Positions 47,175-63,416 of a stretch of 64,000 nucleotides of DNA are shown in pieces (position 1 is the first letter of the stretch; each line of letters opens with the position of its first letter). The position numbers were made by a program, and so were the translations under genes. Below the pieces are notes generated by a model. The model saw only the letters and a list, made by a program, of their open reading frames with translations. It was not told where the DNA came from and ran no database searches. Source of the DNA: Alphaproteobacteria bacterium (lineage in GTDB: Bacteria > Pseudomonadota > Alphaproteobacteria > Sphingomonadales > Sphingomonadaceae); assembly GCA_030426245.1 (NCBI GenBank), contig JAUHYZ010000006.1, positions 44,351 to 108,350 on the forward strand, read 5' to 3'.

Positions 47175-48227
47175 TCAAGCGAGTTCTTGGCGGACAATGC
47201 GCGTGCCTTCTACCATCGCCTTCAATTTGGCGCTCGCGATGTCGCGGGGGAGGTATTTGAGCCCGCAATCGGGCGCAATCACAAGTTTTTCAGCCGGGGT
47301 ATGTTCCAAGGCCCGGCGTATACGCGCGGCCACAAGCTCCGGCGCGTCGATGGCATGCGTCGACAGATCCAGCACCCCCAGAATGATTGTCTTTTCCGGC
47401 AAGGTCTCGAGGATCGAACAGTCAAGATCAGACTGTGCGGTTTCGATCGAGATCTGATCGATCGCGCTGTCTGCAAGTTCGGGCAGGAAGCTGTACCCTT
47501 CTGGGCGCTCATGGATCAGCGCCGCATATCCGAAACAGATATGTATCGCTGTCGTCCCCGGTACGCCATCCAGCGCCCTTGTCAGCGCCTTGAGGCCGTA
47601 TTCGCGGGCCTTGTCCGCTCTTGCCTGCATATAGGGCTCATCGAGCTGGACGATGTCGGCGCCGGCCGCGAAGAGATCCTTGATTTCCTCGTTCACGGCT
47701 GCGGCATATCCTAGTGCCAGCGCTTCGGGGTCGCCGTAATGATCGTCCTGCGCTTGCTGGGCCATGGTAAAGGGACCGGGGACTGTGATCTTGATCACGC
47801 GGTCGGTATGTGCCCGCATGAATTCGACATCGCGGACCTGGACGGGATGCTTGCGGGAAATCGGCCCGACCACGCGTGGGACCGGCACAGGCTCTCCACT
47901 GCGGTCCAGAGCGGTACCGTGATTGTCGACATCGACCCCTTCCAGCGCGGTGGCGAAGCGGTTGGAATAGCTTTCGCGCCGCATTTCGCCGTCGGTCACA
48001 ATATCGATACCTGCGGCTTCCTGCTCCGCCAGCGCGATGATGGTCGCATCGTCCCAAGCCTGCTCCAGCCATTCGGGGGCGACACGCCAGAGCTCTTTCG
48101 CGCGAGTTCGCGGCGGGAAGCGCGAGGCAAGCTTTTCCCGGTCTATCAGCCAATCGGGCTGGGAATGCGAACCGACCAGCGAGGTCGGCAGCTTGGGCAA
48201 CTGTGTCATTGGTAAGGCCATCTCCAT
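47175..48227 (-). CDS. MetE-like cobalamin-independent methyltransferase family protein
   Basis: A 350-residue TIM-barrel protein resembling the C-terminal half of cobalamin-independent methionine synthase. It starts with LPTSLVGSHSQPDWLIDREKL. The zinc ligands are present: His and Cys in AIHICFG, Glu in SIETAQSDLD, Cys in IAPDCGLKYL. Full MetE is ~750 residues, so this is the short stand-alone form, a group that also includes epoxyalkane:coenzyme M transferase and YxjG-like proteins. It therefore activates a thiol, but the methyl or alkyl donor is unknown. It is divergent from an exported SnoaL gene, with a perfect palindrome between them. Confidence 0.82.
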   Translation of the reverse strand: MEMALPMTQLPKLPTSLVGSHSQPDWLIDREKLASRFPPRTRAKELWRVAPEWLEQAWDDATIIALAEQEAAGIDIVTDGEMRRESYSNRFATALEGVDVDNHGTALDRSGEPVPVPRVVGPISRKHPVQVRDVEFMRAHTDRVIKITVPGPFTMAQQAQDDHYGDPEALALGYAAAVNEEIKDLFAAGADIVQLDEPYMQARADKAREYGLKALTRALDGVPGTTAIHICFGYAALIHERPEGYSFLPELADSAIDQISIETAQSDLDCSILETLPEKTIILGVLDLSTHAIDAPELVAARIRRALEHTPAEKLVIAPDCGLKYLPRDIASAKLKAMVEGTRIVRQELA

Positions 48228-48389: not shown

Positions 48390-48953
48390 TTGGATAGGCG
48401 AAAGATTTCGAGACGCAGTCTGGCGGCCGGAATGGCCACGCTTGGGGGCGCATTGATCGGCACGACGGCCGCTGTGGCGGCGTCCGCTTCAGGCTCGACG
48501 CGCAAGGGTTCCTCTGCAGGTGCTTCCAAGCTGCCGGCAGAAGATCGGCTGGATCTCATCGAGTTGATGTCGATCTATGCATGGGCCTATGACACGGAAG
48601 ATGCCGCACTGCTGGCTTCGACTTTCACGCCCGATGGCAAGCTTGTCGTCTTTGGAAATGTCCTTGTGGAAGGTCGGGAAGGTTTCTCAGCTTTCATCGA
48701 TCAGGCGAAGGAGATGAAGGGAGAGCATGGCTGGCAGCATTTGGCGGATCACCACGTGTTCCGCGACTATGACGGCCAGAGCTGCAACATCTATTCCTAC
48801 TACACGATGGCCGAGTCCGATCTGCAGGGTGGCAATGTGAACATGCGGGCTATGGGGTATTATGCCAGCCACTGCGTAAGGGATGGCACCGGTTGGCTGT
48901 TTACCGAACGTTCGGTTGTGCGCTGGAACGGCGAATTGCCGTTCAAGGCGTAG
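48390..48953 (+). CDS. TAT-exported SnoaL/NTF2-like protein
   Basis: About 187 residues with a twin-arginine signal (RRKISRRSLAAGMATLGGALIG) and a SnoaL_4-type domain: RLDLIELMSIYAWAYDTEDAALLASTFTPDGKLVV, then EGREGFSAFIDQAKE and WLFTERSVVRWNGE. Related folds act as dehydratases, cyclases or ketosteroid isomerases in the cytoplasm, so export is unusual. The TTG at 48390 is chosen because AGGAGG sits five bases upstream and the TAT signal begins there; the track start is 18 codons too long. It stands on the plus strand opposite the DoxX/SnoaL operon. Confidence 0.82.
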   Translation: MDRRKISRRSLAAGMATLGGALIGTTAAVAASASGSTRKGSSAGASKLPAEDRLDLIELMSIYAWAYDTEDAALLASTFTPDGKLVVFGNVLVEGREGFSAFIDQAKEMKGEHGWQHLADHHVFRDYDGQSCNIYSYYTMAESDLQGGNVNMRAMGYYASHCVRDGTGWLFTERSVVRWNGELPFKA

Positions 48954-49007: not shown

Positions 49008-49502
49008 CTATCCTGCCCGCTCTTCGTCAGTTTCCGCCGGGGCATGCGCCTGGATCACTTCCCAATGCTCGACAATCAGGCCGTCCTGCACGCGAAAGAT
49101 GTCCACCTCGCTATGGGGCGGCTGACCTTCTGTGGAAAAGACCAGTTGCTGAACAACGGCTAGGTCCTTGTTCGCCACAGTGTTCAATATCTTGCGCTGC
49201 TGAGCAGGCGACCCCCAGCCGCGTTCCTGCAGGCGCGCGGCGCGGCCTGCAGCGCCAGGCAGGAGCCCGTGCTCGACCAGCTCATCGCTGAAATATTGCT
49301 CGGCGGCTTCGTCCGGTTTGCCTTCCTCGATAGCCAGCTTGATGAAGCGGCCTGCAACTGCCGCAGCGCTCTTGTCCATCGCCGCTGCACTTTCGTAATG
49401 CGCGCGGCTGCGCGGTCCGTAATCGGTCGTAGTCCACAAAGTGAAGAGAATGGGCGCGGCAATTCCAAGCACGATAGCGATGACATGCGTTGCTGGGCGC
49501 AT
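49008..49502 (-). CDS. Membrane-anchored SnoaL-like protein
   Basis: A 164-residue protein with an N-terminal TM anchor (HVIAIVLGIAAPILFTLWTT) followed by a SnoaL-type domain: GRFIKLAIEEGKPDEAAEQYFSDELVEHG and SEVDIFRVQDGLIVEHWEVIQAHAP, the family C-terminal signature. It starts three bases after the DoxX gene stop and is the last gene of the long minus-strand operon. The anchor may replace the separate small TM protein found beside other DoxX genes here. Reaction unknown. Confidence 0.82.
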   Translation of the reverse strand: MRPATHVIAIVLGIAAPILFTLWTTTDYGPRSRAHYESAAAMDKSAAAVAGRFIKLAIEEGKPDEAAEQYFSDELVEHGLLPGAAGRAARLQERGWGSPAQQRKILNTVANKDLAVVQQLVFSTEGQPPHSEVDIFRVQDGLIVEHWEVIQAHAPAETDEERAG

Positions 49503-49505
49503 CGT

Positions 49506-49997
49506 TCAATGCTCCCATTCCGAATTGCCGAAGAGGCGTTTCACGCCCTTTAGCGACGGATCGCCCTGATTGCAGACCAGCATGGGCAGAAAGCGGTCCA
49601 GATGCGAGATCGCCATCAGACACAGCATGATGATGATCGCCACTGCGGTACCCGTGCCGAACCAGTCACCGTTGGTCGCATGATCGAAGAATGCGATACC
49701 GACACCGACCGGGAAGGCCAGCACGATGGCCAGCGGAACGAAGCGATTGGCGAGTAGCAGGGCGCCGCTTACCACTTCCATTCCCTTGACCAGATCGAAC
49801 ATGCCGCTTTCGATCATCGCGCCGATGAGGCCGGCACCTGCGGGCGATGAGCCGGGAGGCTGGGGGAAGAAGCTGAACCAATTGTTCAGCCCGTGGACTA
49901 AGAACCAGCCGCCAAAGAAGAACTGCACGCAGTAGACGACTATCTTGAATGTGGTTCCACTCTCCTTGGTGGCCGAGTTTGCAGCTTGGCTCGCCAT
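49506..49997 (-). CDS. DoxX-family membrane protein (copy 1)
   Basis: About 163 residues with four TM helices. It shares two motifs with the other DoxX proteins in this window: GGWFLVHGLNNWFSFFP in the first helix and LVKGMEVVSGALLLANRFVPLA later. The ATG at 49997 follows a strong GGGAGGGG; the long track ORF upstream of it is only the MFS gene read in another frame. DoxX proteins were named from a thiosulfate:quinone oxidoreductase and often occur in redox or oxidative-stress settings, but no activity is known for this group. It lies between an MFS gene and an anchored SnoaL gene. Confidence 0.85.
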   Translation of the reverse strand: MASQAANSATKESGTTFKIVVYCVQFFFGGWFLVHGLNNWFSFFPQPPGSSPAGAGLIGAMIESGMFDLVKGMEVVSGALLLANRFVPLAIVLAFPVGVGIAFFDHATNGDWFGTGTAVAIIIMLCLMAISHLDRFLPMLVCNQGDPSLKGVKRLFGNSEWEH

Positions 49998-50041: not shown

Positions 50042-51358
50042 TCATTCTGCCGGTGCTGCCGCGCCGTGCCGCTTGCCCGGCATTGCCAGCATTGCAATTG
50101 TGACGAATGCCATAAGGATCGCCAGGAAAAGGAAGAAGGCGCTGACCCCTGCCAGTGCGACGAGATGGACGCCGCCCACTGCAGCCAATACGCCGCCGAT
50201 ACGTCCGATTGCGTCCGATGTGCCCACGCCGCTGGCACGCAGGTTTGGTGGATATATCTCCGCCACAAGCGTGTAGAGCGCCGTAACGATCGCAGCCGAG
50301 CCAATTCCGCCGAAGGCAAGAATGCTGAGCAGCACCGGTTCGCTCAGACGGCTGCCTGCAGATGTGTAGGCCAGTACCGCAGAAACGATCACCGTGATTG
50401 CGGCGCCTAGCGGGGCGACGCGGTGTAGACCGAACCGTCCGAGCAGCCAGCCTGCTAGCGGCGTCCCGACGATCGAGGCGATGGTCCACGCTGTGAGTGC
50501 GCCGCTGGCGAAGGACAGCGGATAGCCGAGCCGCGATAGGGCGACCGGGACCCAATTGAGCACGGCATTGCCGAATATGTAAGTGGCGAAGAACAGCCCC
50601 CAGATGCCAAGTGTCGCACCGGGATTGGCATGCAGCAATTGGACGAAACGCTTGTGAAAAGGCTCTTCCTCGCCGGCGGCAGCGGGCGCTTCGCGTGGCT
50701 CGTGGCTAATCCCAAGCCGTTCTGTAATACGCTTCAATTCGGCGCTTCGAGCTGGAATTTTAACAAGAAAATTAGGTGATTCCGGGACGAATATCACAAA
50801 GCAGATAAATACCGGAATGCTCAGAAGGGCGAACAGCCGGAACAATGCCTGCCACCCGAACTCAGGCAAGATTGCGGCGGATGCCAGGGCGGCGATGCTG
50901 AGCCCGGTGGGCAGCGACGCGACGGAGAAGCTGATTGCCAATGCGCGTCGCTCGAACGGAACGAGCTCGGTCAACAATGCCATGGATGCTGCAAAGAAGC
51001 AGCCCATGGCAACGCCTGCCAAAAGGACCGGGACGAAAAGTTGAAGGGGGGTCGAGGCAAATGTCGCCAAGGCTTCGAACAGACCCAACATCAGGAGCGA
51101 TGCCCCGATAAGGAAGCGCCTGCCGAAATTGTCGGCAATGACGCCGCCCGAGACCGCCCCCAAACCGGAACCAATCAGGACTGCCGCGATAGGCAATGCC
51201 ATGGCCGTATCTGGCAGGCCCCAATCTGCGATGATTGCCGGGGCGGAGACCGGCAACAGTTGGATGAAGGTCCCGCTCAGGACGAAGATTGCCATCAGAG
51301 AGGCAATTGTGGCGAATGGAGTGGGCCTGGTGCGCATCAGGCCGGTTTCCTTGCTCAT
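50042..51358 (-). CDS. MFS transporter
   Basis: Twelve-TM transporter of about 438 residues. The loop 2-3 motif is VIADNFGRRFLIG, the mid-loop is FVPESPNFLV, and the second half has AGWLLGRFGLHRVAPLG and the LVAEIYPPNLRASGVGTSDAIGRIGG region of the aromatic acid/organic cation porter group. The ATG at 51358 has GGGAGG upstream; the track start adds 44 unlikely codons. It sits between the MetE-like and DoxX genes of the minus-strand operon and probably imports the cluster substrate or moves an intermediate. Confidence 0.88.
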   Translation of the reverse strand: MSKETGLMRTRPTPFATIASLMAIFVLSGTFIQLLPVSAPAIIADWGLPDTAMALPIAAVLIGSGLGAVSGGVIADNFGRRFLIGASLLMLGLFEALATFASTPLQLFVPVLLAGVAMGCFFAASMALLTELVPFERRALAISFSVASLPTGLSIAALASAAILPEFGWQALFRLFALLSIPVFICFVIFVPESPNFLVKIPARSAELKRITERLGISHEPREAPAAAGEEEPFHKRFVQLLHANPGATLGIWGLFFATYIFGNAVLNWVPVALSRLGYPLSFASGALTAWTIASIVGTPLAGWLLGRFGLHRVAPLGAAITVIVSAVLAYTSAGSRLSEPVLLSILAFGGIGSAAIVTALYTLVAEIYPPNLRASGVGTSDAIGRIGGVLAAVGGVHLVALAGVSAFFLFLAILMAFVTIAMLAMPGKRHGAAAPAE

Positions 51359-51434: not shown

Positions 51435-52556
51435 TCAGCCCCAGACCTTGCGAGCCACTTCGACCACAAGTTCAAGCTTGCGGCGTTCATCGTCGACGGT
51501 GATCAGATTGCCCAGCTCGGTCGAGGCAAAGCCGCATTGCGGGCTGATCGCCAGATCTTCGAGCGGGACGAATTTAGTCGCCTCGTCGATCCGCTTGCAG
51601 AGATAATCGACATCTTCCAAATCGCCGACCTTCGTCGTGATCAGGCCGAGCACCACAACCTTGCCCTTGGGCACGAAACGCAGGGGTTCGAAGCCGCCGG
51701 CACGGTCGGTATCGAATTCCATAAGGAACCGGTCGGTGTCGACCTGTCCCAGCAGATATTCGGCTACGCTTTCATAGCTGCCTTCGGCGCCCCAGGAGCT
51801 GCGGTGGTTGCCGCGGCAGATATGCACGCCGCGGGTCACTCCTTCCCGCTTCATGGTGCCAAGTACGCGGTTGTCGATCTCTACCAGCCGCTCCAGTGTT
51901 CCGCGCGCATCGGCAGGATTTATGTCTCCTGTATGGGCGGCCTGGATCGTATCGATATAGCGCAGGGAATCGAGCTGGAGATAGGGCACGCCGATCTCGT
52001 GGAGCGCTTGGATTTCGCCCTGATAGAGTTTCACCAGGTCGTCGAGCAGTTCGTCCATGTCGGCATAGACGGCCTTGCTGATCTCGGGATCGAACAGTCG
52101 GGTGAACATGCTTGGGCTGGGGATGGTGATCTTGAAGGGGCCGGAGGCATTCTTCTTCAGGAACTCCGCTTCCTTGGTTGCGAAGCTGTGCTTGAGGCCG
52201 ATTTTTTCTGCTGCGACATAGTGCTGTGGAACAGTTTCTTCGGCGACGTCCGAATGCGCACCATGCCATCGGCGAGCGGGCTGTCCGCCGCCCGGGGCTT
52301 CCTTGCGCGTCGGGACAAGGCCGGAGAGCGAACTGGTCAGACCGCTCCCCCAAGCAGCGCGGCGGAATTCTCCGTCGCTCACCACTTGGATGCCGGTTTC
52401 CTTCTGCAGGACCAGCACGTCGCGAATTGCCTGGTCCTCTTCCTCCCGCAGGGCTTCTGCGGAGACTGCACCGGCTTCAAACTGACGGCGTTTGGCAAGC
52501 AGGCTTTCCGGTCGAAGAAGACTGCCGACCTGATCGGCACGAATGATATTTCCCAT
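51435..52556 (-). CDS. MetE-like protein (YxjG type), second copy
   Basis: A 373-residue stand-alone MetE C-terminal-type barrel. The opening RADQVGSLLRPESLLAKR is the signature of the YxjG/YxjH group. Zinc ligands are visible: GVHICRGNH (His, Cys), EFDTDRAG (Glu) and ISPQCGFAS (Cys). It would activate a thiol such as homocysteine, or accept a methyl or alkyl group from a pathway intermediate, e.g. removing a methyl group. TGGAG precedes the ATG. It is inside the DoxX/SnoaL operon, downstream of the double-SnoaL lipoprotein. Confidence 0.85.
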   Translation of the reverse strand: MGNIIRADQVGSLLRPESLLAKRRQFEAGAVSAEALREEEDQAIRDVLVLQKETGIQVVSDGEFRRAAWGSGLTSSLSGLVPTRKEAPGGGQPARRWHGAHSDVAEETVPQHYVAAEKIGLKHSFATKEAEFLKKNASGPFKITIPSPSMFTRLFDPEISKAVYADMDELLDDLVKLYQGEIQALHEIGVPYLQLDSLRYIDTIQAAHTGDINPADARGTLERLVEIDNRVLGTMKREGVTRGVHICRGNHRSSWGAEGSYESVAEYLLGQVDTDRFLMEFDTDRAGGFEPLRFVPKGKVVVLGLITTKVGDLEDVDYLCKRIDEATKFVPLEDLAISPQCGFASTELGNLITVDDERRKLELVVEVARKVWG

Positions 52557-52612: not shown

Positions 52613-53620
52613 CTATTCCAGCGGGGCGGGGCCCTTGTGCCGGCCTTCTTCCAATGGTCCGTCGATAACCATCGAGCGGCCCGATACGCTGAAGGGCGGG
52701 ACGTCCTGGAAGACGTCCCAATGATCGGTGACTTTGCCGTCCCTGACGCGGAACAAATCCACAAAGGCCGTGCCCAGCGGATTGCTCTCGCTGGTTACCC
52801 AGCGATGGACGAGGACGAGATCACCATCGGCAATGGTACGGGCGAAGTGGTGCGTGCGATTGTCCGCAAGCCGCTGTTCCTCGCGTGCAGCCATGTAGTC
52901 GATCAAGCCCTGCCGGCCCGGAGGTATACGGGCGCTGTGCTGGTTCAGATCCTCTGCCACATAGGTTTCAATCGCTTCGATGCGCCGCCCGGGTTCCAGG
53001 CCCATATTCATGTAATCGAGAACCAACTTGGTATTGGCTTCGGGATCTCCGGTTGGATCGGGCTGGCCGCAAACCGGGTTCTCAACCGTATTGCCGGCCT
53101 GCTTCGCCTCTTCATAGGTCACACCGACACCGCAACCGACAGCCCGCTTTTCAGCGGTTTCTTCGTCGATCGGCATGATGACGTCCCAATGTTCGGCAAA
53201 CTGACCGTCTTCCACGCGCCAGATGTCGACGAAAATGCGGCCGGTGTCTTCGGGACTGGTAAAGACGTGCGACTTGACCGCCACGAACTGATCGTCGGCC
53301 ATGATATTGTGGACGACGTTCACATAGTCGTCGGTAGCGTCGTATTTCTCCGGTTCGGCATCCTTGCGAGCTTCGAGGAATTCTTCGTCACCCTGATTGC
53401 CGTCACCGATCCAGGGATCGTGCTGCATGATGTCCGGGGCGAAGTATTTCGCGAAGGCTTCGTTGGATTTCTTCTCCTGAGTGAGCAGCATCAGAAAATC
53501 GGTGATTGCAGCCCGGTTGGCTTCTCTTTGCGTCGGTGCTTGCGCTTCTTCCGCAGCCTCTGGTGCGGAGCAGGAGGCCAGAGCTAGCGCCGTAGCTGCG
53601 AGTGTAATCTTGCGGATCAT
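52613..53620 (-). CDS. Lipoprotein with two SnoaL-like domains
   Basis: A 335-residue lipoprotein (lipobox LALASC). It contains two tandem SnoaL units. The first includes FAKYFAPDIMQHDPWIGDGNQGDEEF and FVDIWRVEDGQFAEHWDVIMP; the second YVAEDLNQHSARIPPGRQGLIDYM and FVDLFRVRDGKVTDHWDVFQDVP. Both carry the QH and HWDV motifs of the family. A Cys pair in the linker may form a disulfide. It starts in a TAATG overlap with the upstream SnoaL gene. A tethered double-domain form is unusual for this fold. Confidence 0.88.
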   Translation of the reverse strand: MIRKITLAATALALASCSAPEAAEEAQAPTQREANRAAITDFLMLLTQEKKSNEAFAKYFAPDIMQHDPWIGDGNQGDEEFLEARKDAEPEKYDATDDYVNVVHNIMADDQFVAVKSHVFTSPEDTGRIFVDIWRVEDGQFAEHWDVIMPIDEETAEKRAVGCGVGVTYEEAKQAGNTVENPVCGQPDPTGDPEANTKLVLDYMNMGLEPGRRIEAIETYVAEDLNQHSARIPPGRQGLIDYMAAREEQRLADNRTHHFARTIADGDLVLVHRWVTSESNPLGTAFVDLFRVRDGKVTDHWDVFQDVPPFSVSGRSMVIDGPLEEGRHKGPAPLE

Positions 53621-54141
53621 TATTCCTCACTCCCATGACTGTATCCCGCAATGGACACAGAATTGAGGTCCATGCGGGCGAAGCGCCAGCCTTCGTCGGT
53701 CCGTGTGCATTGCATGGATATCTCGACCAGCATCATCGTGCCCAGGCTATCGATTTCGTGGCGCTTGTTGGGGTTGTAGCGGTGCTGTTGAACCAGCGCG
53801 GTGCCGGATGCGTTGTTGCTATCCACTATGTTCCAGCGAATGTTGTTTATGGCGTGGCGGCCGACCGTGGGCCGCTCGTTCGCCGCTATTCCGTCCCACA
53901 TCTCGCGAAACTTGGCGCGGCCTTCGACTTCCACCTGGCCATCGGCGGTCCAGATGCCGTCGACGGCAAACACGTCGGTCACTTTGGCCGGATCCACTTC
54001 GTCCAAGCCCTCGCCGTAAGTGTAGAGAATCTCGGTGCAGGCGTCCTTGATCAGGAGCATTTCGACCTGGCCCGGATCGTCATGGGCGATGCTTGGGGAG
54101 GCCAGTACACACAGAGCTCCCGCCGCGATTATCGGTTTCAT
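53620..54141 (-). CDS. Sec-exported SnoaL_4-like protein
   Basis: About 173 residues with a cleavable signal (IIAAGALCVLASPSIAHDD) and a SnoaL_4-type domain: IKDACTEILYTYGEGLDEVDPAKVTDVFAVDGIW, EGRAKFREMWDGIAAN, and TRTDEGWRFARMDLNSVSIAGY at the end. The ATG at 54141 is taken because GGAG lies eight bases upstream and it overlaps the stop of the 32-aa ORF (ATGA); the longer track start is not needed. Its own stop overlaps the next start (TAATG). Reaction unknown; the fold suits dehydration or isomerisation of a hydrophobic molecule. Confidence 0.85.
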   Translation of the reverse strand: MKPIIAAGALCVLASPSIAHDDPGQVEMLLIKDACTEILYTYGEGLDEVDPAKVTDVFAVDGIWTADGQVEVEGRAKFREMWDGIAANERPTVGRHAINNIRWNIVDSNNASGTALVQQHRYNPNKRHEIDSLGTMMLVEISMQCTRTDEGWRFARMDLNSVSIAGYSHGSEE

Positions 54142-54236
54142 GATTTGTCTCCGCGATGTCTGGCCCAATCGCGCAGGATCACCACCAGCAGCACGAAGGT
54201 GGCGAATAGCAGCGGACCATATTGATGGGGCATCAT
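54138..54236 (-). CDS. 32-residue transmembrane microprotein
   Basis: Not listed separately in the ORF track, where it is the tail of a longer shadow ORF. The frame from the ATG at 54236 encodes MMPHQYGPLLFATFVLLVVILRDW followed by a basic tail: a single TM helix with positive charges at the cytoplasmic end. Its start overlaps the DoxX stop as ATGA, and its stop overlaps the SnoaL start as ATGA, so it is tied into the operon on both sides. By analogy with the 77-aa ORF at 63183, it could be a small subunit of the DoxX membrane complex. Chance overlap is possible but unlikely at both ends. Confidence 0.6.
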   Translation of the reverse strand: MMPHQYGPLLFATFVLLVVILRDWARHRGDKS

Positions 54237-54748
54237 GGGCTGGAAGTCCTCAGGTAAGGAGCCCTCCAGAGTGGCCGCATCTTTGCCTTGGGTGTCACCA
54301 GAGGCAGGAAGTAATCGGCGTAGCAGGCCAGGATGAAGAGGTTGAAGCCGATCTCCCTCGCGCCTGAGAACACGATATTGGGTGAACCGTCGACGAAGAA
54401 ACAGAGATAGGCGATGATCACGCTGATGGGCAGCTCGATCGCGGCGGCCAATGGAACGAAACGGTTGGCGAGCAGGCAAATGCCTACCGTCATTTCGATC
54501 ACCTTCACCAGATCGTATAGGCCGATCTCTATCAGTTGCCCCATGAACGGGCCGATCGGCGAAAGTGCGGGATCGCCACCTCCGCCAATGTCGAAGATCG
54601 GGACGAAGTGATTGAGGCCGGAGATCAGGCTGTGCGCACCGAAGGCCATACGCACCCAGAGCAGCGCGTAGCGTGTCCAATCAATTTGGAACGCCTGTGC
54701 TTCAGACAAAGGGCTGGTCCTTTTCGCAATCCATGTCTCTCTCCCCAT
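54233..54748 (-). CDS. DoxX-family membrane protein (copy 2)
   Basis: About 171 residues with four TM helices. It carries RMAFGAHSLISGLNHFVPIF and LVKVIEMTVGICLLANRFVPLA, the two motifs common to the DoxX copies here. The ATG at 54748 is internal to the track ORF and begins MGRETWIAK; a weak GGTG is upstream, so the start is less sure. It is the first gene of the minus-strand operon and is divergent from the lactonase-like hydrolase, with the 13-base element at 54800 between them. Possible quinone- or redox-linked role, unproven. Confidence 0.83.
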   Translation of the reverse strand: MGRETWIAKRTSPLSEAQAFQIDWTRYALLWVRMAFGAHSLISGLNHFVPIFDIGGGGDPALSPIGPFMGQLIEIGLYDLVKVIEMTVGICLLANRFVPLAAAIELPISVIIAYLCFFVDGSPNIVFSGAREIGFNLFILACYADYFLPLVTPKAKMRPLWRAPYLRTSSP

Positions 54749-61947: not shown

Positions 61948-62595
61948 TCAGCGCGGCGGAGCCAGCAAGGCCAGGCTGCTCCAGGGAATGATCCCGATAA
62001 TCATGCCGATGGCCCACAAGGTCGAAATCGCACCGACGGTGTAGCTGAGCCAGCGCAAGGTGAACCTGACAGGCGCCGATTCGAATATCGAAGTCCATGC
62101 TGCCGGTTCGCCGCCCGGTTTCACAGTGAACATCTGCCGGTAATCGCCGAAATATTCGGACATCAGATAGGCCTGCATCACGAACACGCCTGCGCCGAAG
62201 AACAGCATGTCGAGAAAACTGGCCCAAAATGCCGCGCCGCTCAAATTGCCAGCCAGGAAGGGGCCGAAGTTTCCAAGGAAAGGAAACAGATCGAGCAGGA
62301 AGGTCATCAAGATGACTGGGAAGCTCAGCACCAGCATCAGCACGGCATAGCGGTTGAATATCAGAGCTAGCCCAAGCAGGATTTCCAGGACCTTGGCGGT
62401 AGAGAACATCCAGCTCGATTCCACGAGTACACGCAGAATTTCGTGCTTCACCGGTCCTTCGATCTGCTCATGCATATTGGGGAACGGTAGAATCTTGAAC
62501 CACCAATTGATGCCCGAGCACAGCGATTGGATTCCCAATAGCCAGCGCACCGCGACGATCGCGAAATTGCGATCATTCAGCTTAAAACCCTCCAT
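61948..62595 (-). CDS. DoxX-family membrane protein (copy 3)
   Basis: A 215-residue protein, longest of the four DoxX copies, with four to five TM helices. It has AVRWLLGIQSLCSGINWWFKILPFP and TAKVLEILLGLALIFNRYAVLM, a diverged form of the two shared motifs (NRYAVL instead of NRFVPL). A C-terminal TM helix (LSYTVGAISTLWAIGMIIGII) is extra. GGAGGGGAG precedes the ATG. It is divergent from copy 4 and ends facing the b561 terminator, so it may be a monocistronic unit. Confidence 0.85.
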   Translation of the reverse strand: MEGFKLNDRNFAIVAVRWLLGIQSLCSGINWWFKILPFPNMHEQIEGPVKHEILRVLVESSWMFSTAKVLEILLGLALIFNRYAVLMLVLSFPVILMTFLLDLFPFLGNFGPFLAGNLSGAAFWASFLDMLFFGAGVFVMQAYLMSEYFGDYRQMFTVKPGGEPAAWTSIFESAPVRFTLRWLSYTVGAISTLWAIGMIIGIIPWSSLALLAPPR

Positions 62596-62733: not shown

Positions 62734-63183
62734 ATGTGGCGGACAATCGAAAAATACGGCGTGGCTTTCTGCCGCTACTACCTAGGCGGCTTCAATCTGA
62801 TCTCGGGACTGAACTACTTCGTGCTGTTCTGGCCCCAGCCGAAGGTGACCGACGTTACCGGCAACGAGTTCGTGATCGCCGCAATGGATCTCAACCTGTT
62901 CACCTATGCCAAGATTTTCGAAATCATCGGCGGTGCGTGCCTGGTATTCAATCGCTTCGTGCCGCTGGGTCTCGTGCTGCTCATGCCGGTTACGATGAAT
63001 ATCTTCCTGGTCAACGTGCCCTGGTCGCCGCTGCCGCATGTTCAGCTGTCGGTGACACGCAACCTGTTGATGCATCTGATCCTGCTGGCGGCATATGCCA
63101 ACTATTTCTACCCGATGCTCAAAGCCAAGACCGCGCCGCAGCCGGTCTGGCGTGATCCCTCACGTATCTGGAGGTCTTTCTGA
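62734..63183 (+). CDS. DoxX-family membrane protein (copy 4)
   Basis: About 149 residues with four TM helices, carrying CRYYLGGFNLISGLNYFVLFWPQP and YAKIFEIIGGACLVFNRFVPLG. GGAGGGGG seven bases upstream fixes the ATG at 62734. Its stop overlaps the start of the 77-aa membrane protein (TGATG), and a SnoaL gene follows further down, repeating the DoxX / small TM / SnoaL order seen on the minus strand at 54 kb. Confidence 0.85.
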   Translation: MWRTIEKYGVAFCRYYLGGFNLISGLNYFVLFWPQPKVTDVTGNEFVIAAMDLNLFTYAKIFEIIGGACLVFNRFVPLGLVLLMPVTMNIFLVNVPWSPLPHVQLSVTRNLLMHLILLAAYANYFYPMLKAKTAPQPVWRDPSRIWRSF

Positions 63184-63416
63184 TGTTGGAGATATTCTTT
63201 GAAAACATGAAGGACGCGACCTTCAGCTTCGTCATGGACGGCAAGACCGACATGATGAGCCTCAATCCGCTGGAGCATACCAACTTCGAGATGATGGGGA
63301 CCATCTTCGGCATTGCCGGCTTGGTGATCACATTCGTGCTTAGCCGGCGCGGAGTGAAGGGCCAGTTGCCACACACATTTACCGACGAGGAAACGGAAGA
63401 AGACTCGCTCAAATGA
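63183..63416 (+). CDS. Small single-TM membrane protein next to DoxX
   Basis: A 77-residue protein with a polar N-terminal half and one TM helix (MMGTIFGIAGLVITFVLSRRG) followed by a basic then acidic tail. No family recognised. It overlaps the DoxX copy 4 stop by one base, so it is translationally coupled. Position and topology match the 32-aa ORF beside DoxX copy 2, suggesting a small partner subunit. Confidence 0.78.
   Translation: MLEIFFENMKDATFSFVMDGKTDMMSLNPLEHTNFEMMGTIFGIAGLVITFVLSRRGVKGQLPHTFTDEETEEDSLK

Follow-up and report, generated by a model that had tools for sequence, protein, structure and literature searches.

DoxX/MauE-like proteins (PF07681) are four-helix membrane proteins, while SnoaL and the IdmH-type cyclases, which have the SnoaL-like/NTF2-like cone fold (PF12680, PF07366), are soluble enzymes. 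In Mycobacterium tuberculosis, a DoxX-containing oxidoreductase complex is made up of DoxX, SodA and SseA. It may offer an analogy to the locus described here, with DoxX as the membrane partner of a soluble protein, although the partner is a different one and no fusion is involved. Within the portions of the sources available, a literature search for DoxX together with SnoaL found nothing related, and searches for DoxX with Sphingobium or with nuclear transport factor returned nothing on point. The Pfam and NCBIfam family names gave no function. The clade of DoxX copy 1 in this window, the whole 64,000-nucleotide stretch of Sphingomonadaceae DNA analyzed, differs from other DoxX/MauE-like proteins in having a C-terminal fifth transmembrane (TM) helix, TM5, either in cis or on a SnoaL protein, and a predicted periplasmic SnoaL partner. 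Unlike the soluble cyclases, this partner (P0001) appears to carry the TM5 of DoxX. The features of the locus are:

49506..49997, minus strand: DoxX copy 1 (P0002), 163 aa, four TM helices, without the C-terminal TM5 of its relatives.
49008..49502, minus strand: anchored SnoaL P0001, 164 aa, TM5 module plus SnoaL_2-type domain.
49374..49502, minus strand: TM5 module, P0001 residues 1-43, a homologue of the fifth TM helix at the C-terminus of proteins related to DoxX copy 1.
49038..49367, minus strand: SnoaL/NTF2-like cone domain, P0001 residues 46-155, from alignment, AF2 model and fold search.
50042..51358, minus strand: MFS transporter (PF07690, E=4.8e-45; start could be 51490), upstream of DoxX copy 1 in the same direction.

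DoxX copy 1 is a four-helix membrane bundle homologous to above-cut-off members of PF07681. Its own match did not reach the cut-off (E=0.022, 15.8 bits against 23.6), but it is homologous (E=4e-10) to a paralogue on contig C25 (36843-37184) that does (27.3 bits), and the AF2 model of a fused relative (L103) displays the four bundle helices. The sequence profile of the clade found no solved PDB chain. P0001 starts 3 nt after the DoxX stop (49506) at an ATG with GGGAG upstream and its N-terminus reads MRPATHVIAIVLGIAAPILFTLWTTTDYGPRSRAHY. The first-pass annotation had noted an N-terminal TM helix on this SnoaL neighbor, which we located at residues ~6-23 (HVIAIVLGIAAPILFTLW); the AF2 model (mean pLDDT 83.9) has a helix at 3-25 followed by the SnoaL/NTF2 cone. 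The annotation was also right that no small TM ORF lies beside DoxX copy 1, as the SnoaL gene 3 nt downstream and the MFS gene 44 nt upstream leave no room for one.

P0001 is of SnoaL_2 type with an NTF2-like cone fold despite scores below the curated Pfam cut-offs (SnoaL_2, PF12680: E=5e-5, 24.2 bits against 27; SnoaL: E=2e-4). Its best solved relative by alignment profile (E=3.3e-39), also ranked first in the fold search, is PDB 3G0K (Saro_2880 of Novosphingobium aromaticivorans), with which it has the motif DIFRV..G.IVEHWDV.Q in common. It also belongs to one family with the above-cut-off SnoaL_2 paralogue at 52613-53620. In the sphingomonad genomes G009, G104, G105, G117 and G236, close relatives of 3G0K are encoded 2-6 kb away from a DoxX of another type.

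The pair of DoxX copy 1 and anchored SnoaL is kept in six genomes. Within this genome, 5 of the 11 DoxX copies have a SnoaL no more than 300 bp away, compared to 0.49 expected under random placement on the same contigs (p ~5e-5), and the DoxX-SnoaL pairing is thus more than chance. The genome (3.0 Mb, 79% complete) holds at least 11 DoxX-like and ~60 SnoaL-like places, a large joint expansion in its catabolic islands. Around the locus, two Meth_synt_2 (MetE C-terminal-domain) paralogues (47175-48227 and 51435-52556) flank the DoxX/SnoaL pair; in L074 the SnoaL_2 gene is directly followed by a 373-aa ORF of matching length. A SnoaL_4-type protein with a twin-arginine-like signal (SRRSLAAG) is encoded at 48393-48953, convergent with the anchored SnoaL, and similar genes occur in L098, beyond the anchored SnoaL, and in Sphingobium sp. 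SYK-6, where they follow DoxX copy 3.

Relatives of DoxX copy 1 on contigs C20, C25 and C60 and in genome G140 are longer (189-222 aa compared to 163), and the added C-terminal stretch forms a fifth TM helix, which aligns with the start of P0001; the C20 DoxX reads AMRGWLHALCIIAGILAPIGVTLLTTQDGGFRSLEHY near its C-terminus. The module has the motif MR..H.x.I..GIAAP...T.WTT.D.GPRS..HY. A leave-out HMM, built from only four anchored-SnoaL N-termini and run over 1658 proteins, matched the C-terminus of the C20 DoxX of the same genome (E=5.5e-15), the L103 fusion (E=6.7e-15), the C25 type (E=2e-6 and 5e-6) and further, weaker copy-1 DoxX proteins at E<=0.0033, the clear cases ranging from 5.5e-15 to 5e-4. 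The converse HMM, from DoxX C-termini, recovered P0001 at E=2.4e-11. TM5 is also present on DoxX proteins without an adjacent SnoaL (L109-L113) and is therefore a part of DoxX. Apart from P0001 itself, the SnoaL matches obtained from 385 genomes across the class aligned only from residue ~19 on, mostly from 28 or later, without a full TM5. One SnoaL (G030) aligning from residue 2 was rejected as a counter-example because it has a signal peptide and no DoxX nearby. By homology, and with high confidence, the helix of P0001 is the TM5 of DoxX.

The comparison of domain fusions across homologues that the first-pass annotation had called for yielded two single-ORF proteins of the order DoxX, TM helix, SnoaL, each known from a single MAG contig. 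A scan of genome contigs identified a 325-aa ORF in a Hyphomonadaceae MAG (L103:5004-5981) whose AF2 model (pLDDT 81) combines the helices of the bundle with TM5 (165-188) and a SnoaL domain. The second fusion, from an Altererythrobacter MAG (L102:9314-10285, 323 aa), is distant, with a long branch (2.97) and a linker helix of its own that the TM5 HMM did not match. The split form, in which a four-helix DoxX is followed by TM5-SnoaL, was found in the window, L098, L099, L100 (Sphingobium sp. SYK-6), L101 (S. jiangsuense) and L102; in other relatives TM5 sits on DoxX itself, and a separate SnoaL may be present or missing. In a tree of DoxX cores computed without the TM5 columns, the six loci of the split type formed one clade (support 89/96) and DoxX-TM5 was the state of the other copy-1 subgroups, for which reason it is taken as ancestral, although the deep branches are weak. 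In the SnoaL-domain tree the split and fused proteins formed one clade (96/97), apart from the SnoaLs beside DoxX-TM5. The split-form start coincides with a Met present in unsplit proteins (LAMRGWLHALC in C20, SAMRPLAH in L103). We infer that the simplest history would be one in which DoxX-TM5 joined SnoaL and later split again in front of TM5 at this pre-existing Met.

Since SnoaL is held by a helix that is the DoxX tail in relatives, and two relatives are single chains, DoxX and SnoaL very probably form one complex. The best overall explanation, in which we have good confidence, is that DoxX copy 1 and its anchored SnoaL neighbor each make up one half of a single membrane protein unit. The TM5 homology, the single-chain version in L103 and the conserved gene order are the parts of this model that the sequences show. 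The ~60 SnoaL places of this genome, many without a DoxX beside them, speak against it. The earlier suggestion that the parts act together gained strength from the two single-ORF proteins; its fusion reading held in that a real domain fusion points to a DoxX-SnoaL partnership, but the helix involved is TM5 and not the small TM protein at 54 kb. The unit would be an inner-membrane complex of the DoxX four-helix bundle, TM5 as fifth helix and a periplasmic SnoaL domain. A shift of the gene boundary in this lineage, from the C-terminal to the N-terminal side of TM5, would have made the helix part of the SnoaL product rather than of DoxX, and TM5 would pack back onto the DoxX bundle, holding SnoaL over its periplasmic face.

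The function of the unit is probably the handling of hydrophobic catabolic intermediates. The surrounding island holds a Rieske oxygenase with a LigXa-type C-terminal domain, a LigB-like dioxygenase, a flavin reductase, an acyl-CoA-dehydrogenase-type enzyme, a cytochrome b561 and an MFS transporter, and Rieske-type proteins (recognized by eye from a CPHR/CAHR..C.YHG motif) are also encoded no more than a few kb from DoxX copy 1 in L099, L101 and L103. The substrate may be a hydrophobic ring-type intermediate of this aromatic/terpenoid-type catabolic island, which the SnoaL cone would bind or isomerize/hydrate while DoxX provides access to the membrane or passes electrons to the quinone pool; this chemistry is tentative and on balance doubtful. 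P0001 retains the near-invariant residues H78, D134, F136, R137, E145, H146 and W147 of the alignment, of which H78, D134, E145, H146 and W147 were considered for a possible polyketide cyclase activity. A non-enzymatic tether or sensor, in which a SnoaL-fold binding domain signals through or stabilizes DoxX, fits as well because P0001 has lost a second His (VHHH to VQQL) that SYK-6, S. jiangsuense and others keep, and P0001 has diverged more than any other split member (branch 1.46 in the SnoaL tree). The five residues just named and the His kept by orthologues weigh against such a role, which we regard as possible but rather unlikely.

The model of two halves of one unit places the SnoaL domain of P0001 on the periplasmic side by prediction from the positive-inside rule. 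DoxX copy 1 is predicted N-in/C-in from its charges, so TM5 would run N-in/C-out with SnoaL in the periplasm; P0001 alone, with R31 and R33 behind the helix, is ambiguous in orientation unless its fused relatives are considered. The helix could also be an ordinary cleaved signal peptide exporting a soluble SnoaL, with DoxX as a mere neighbor; several other SnoaLs of these loci do have Sec-like signal peptides, and P0001 begins Met-Arg followed by a hydrophobic stretch. This is improbable because the homologous helix lies inside the chain of the L103 fusion and at the C-terminus of DoxX proteins; moreover, no A-x-A site was seen by eye at the helix end, and conservation across genera covers both the helix and the WTTxDxGPRSxxHY segment that follows it.

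The first-pass annotation had taken the anchored SnoaL for a fused version of the small TM and SnoaL proteins encoded separately at 54 kb. The features concerned, with the other DoxX loci of the window, are:

54233..54709, minus strand: DoxX copy 2, 158 aa, start placed at a TTG from the comparison to L098.
54138..54236, minus strand: small TM microprotein, 32 aa, predicted N-out/C-in, not homologous to TM5.
53620..54141, minus strand: SnoaL_4-type protein with a Sec-type signal peptide (PF13577, E=1e-13).
52613..53620, minus strand: double SnoaL_2 protein, lipobox LASC (PF12680, E=3e-18, two stretches).
61948..62595, minus strand: DoxX copy 3, 215 aa, with its own C-terminal extra TM helix.
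62734..63183, plus strand: DoxX copy 4, 149 aa.
63183..63416, plus strand: 77-aa protein with a single TM helix; overlaps DoxX copy 4 and is conserved in G140 and G119.

That fusion is likewise hard to sustain. Both loci do have a DoxX, one extra single TM helix and a SnoaL, and the small TM protein is, on comparison of its relatives, a genuine, separate conserved microprotein: a single-TM ORF of 27-36 aa directly follows DoxX in all seven copy-2-type loci examined (this genome's own, G550 and L098, G140, G119, SYK-6, G197 and S. jiangsuense). However, the small-TM and TM5 HMMs did not cross-match, and the small-TM HMM, run over the same 1658 proteins, recovered only its own family at low E and not the P0001 helix; the small TM was therefore rejected as the source of that helix. 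The P0001 helix also lacks the family pattern (MMPHQxGPLLFAT..LL...RD with a positively charged C-terminus), the net charge of the C-terminal flank being 0 compared to +2 in the small TM. From its positively charged C-terminus the small TM is predicted N-out/C-in, opposed to TM5, so the two helices are not equivalent. The SnoaL at 54 kb is of SnoaL_4 type whereas P0001 is of SnoaL_2 type, its SnoaL_2-type counterpart there being the double SnoaL_2 protein. Anchoring does not stand in for the small TM either, because copy-1-clade loci with an unanchored SnoaL also lack it. We consider the chance that P0001 is such a fusion to be very slight.

Members of the microprotein family include 54138-54236, L071:14988-15083, L074:16393-16485 and those in L191, L192 and L101; in several loci the ATG overlaps the DoxX stop. 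A 67-77-aa single-TM protein (MSLNPLEMTNFEMMGTI...) directly follows DoxX copy 4 in three genomes (63183-63416; L071:6276-6506; L074:9514-9717). In Sphingobium sp. SYK-6 (L067:8460-10412) the frame of an MFS transporter continues without a stop into a copy-2-type DoxX (650 aa); judging by the in-frame residues KKERMMW at the joint, this DoxX may also be started from an ATG of its own.

That the similarity between P0001 and the DoxX C-termini reflects shared hydrophobicity alone is barely credible: TM helices have a biased composition and the matches to L104, L105, L108, L110 and L112 are weak, yet among the many TM proteins in the database only DoxX/SnoaL clade members scored at E<0.05, bar one weak 65-aa ORF (E=0.027), and the C20 and L103 matches span 40 residues, polar GPRSxxHY tail included.

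Each DoxX of the window has one extra helix available, carried on the SnoaL (copy 1), a 32-aa ORF (copy 2), its own C-terminus (copy 3) or a 77-aa ORF (copy 4). It is conceivable, if somewhat speculative, that in sphingomonad catabolic islands the DoxX-like bundles form the membrane half of units with an anchored SnoaL fold, an undescribed family, each unit being completed by one extra TM helix (on DoxX, on SnoaL or as a separate 30-80-aa microprotein) and working at the periplasmic face on intermediates soluble in the membrane. DoxX proteins occur widely, and most of them have no defined function. A helix that moves between host genes, together with two single-chain DoxX-SnoaL proteins, would name a physical partner and a membrane side for DoxX, and as the split pair occurs in the genetically tractable Sphingobium sp. 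SYK-6, DoxX would become testable as a two-part membrane enzyme or carrier.
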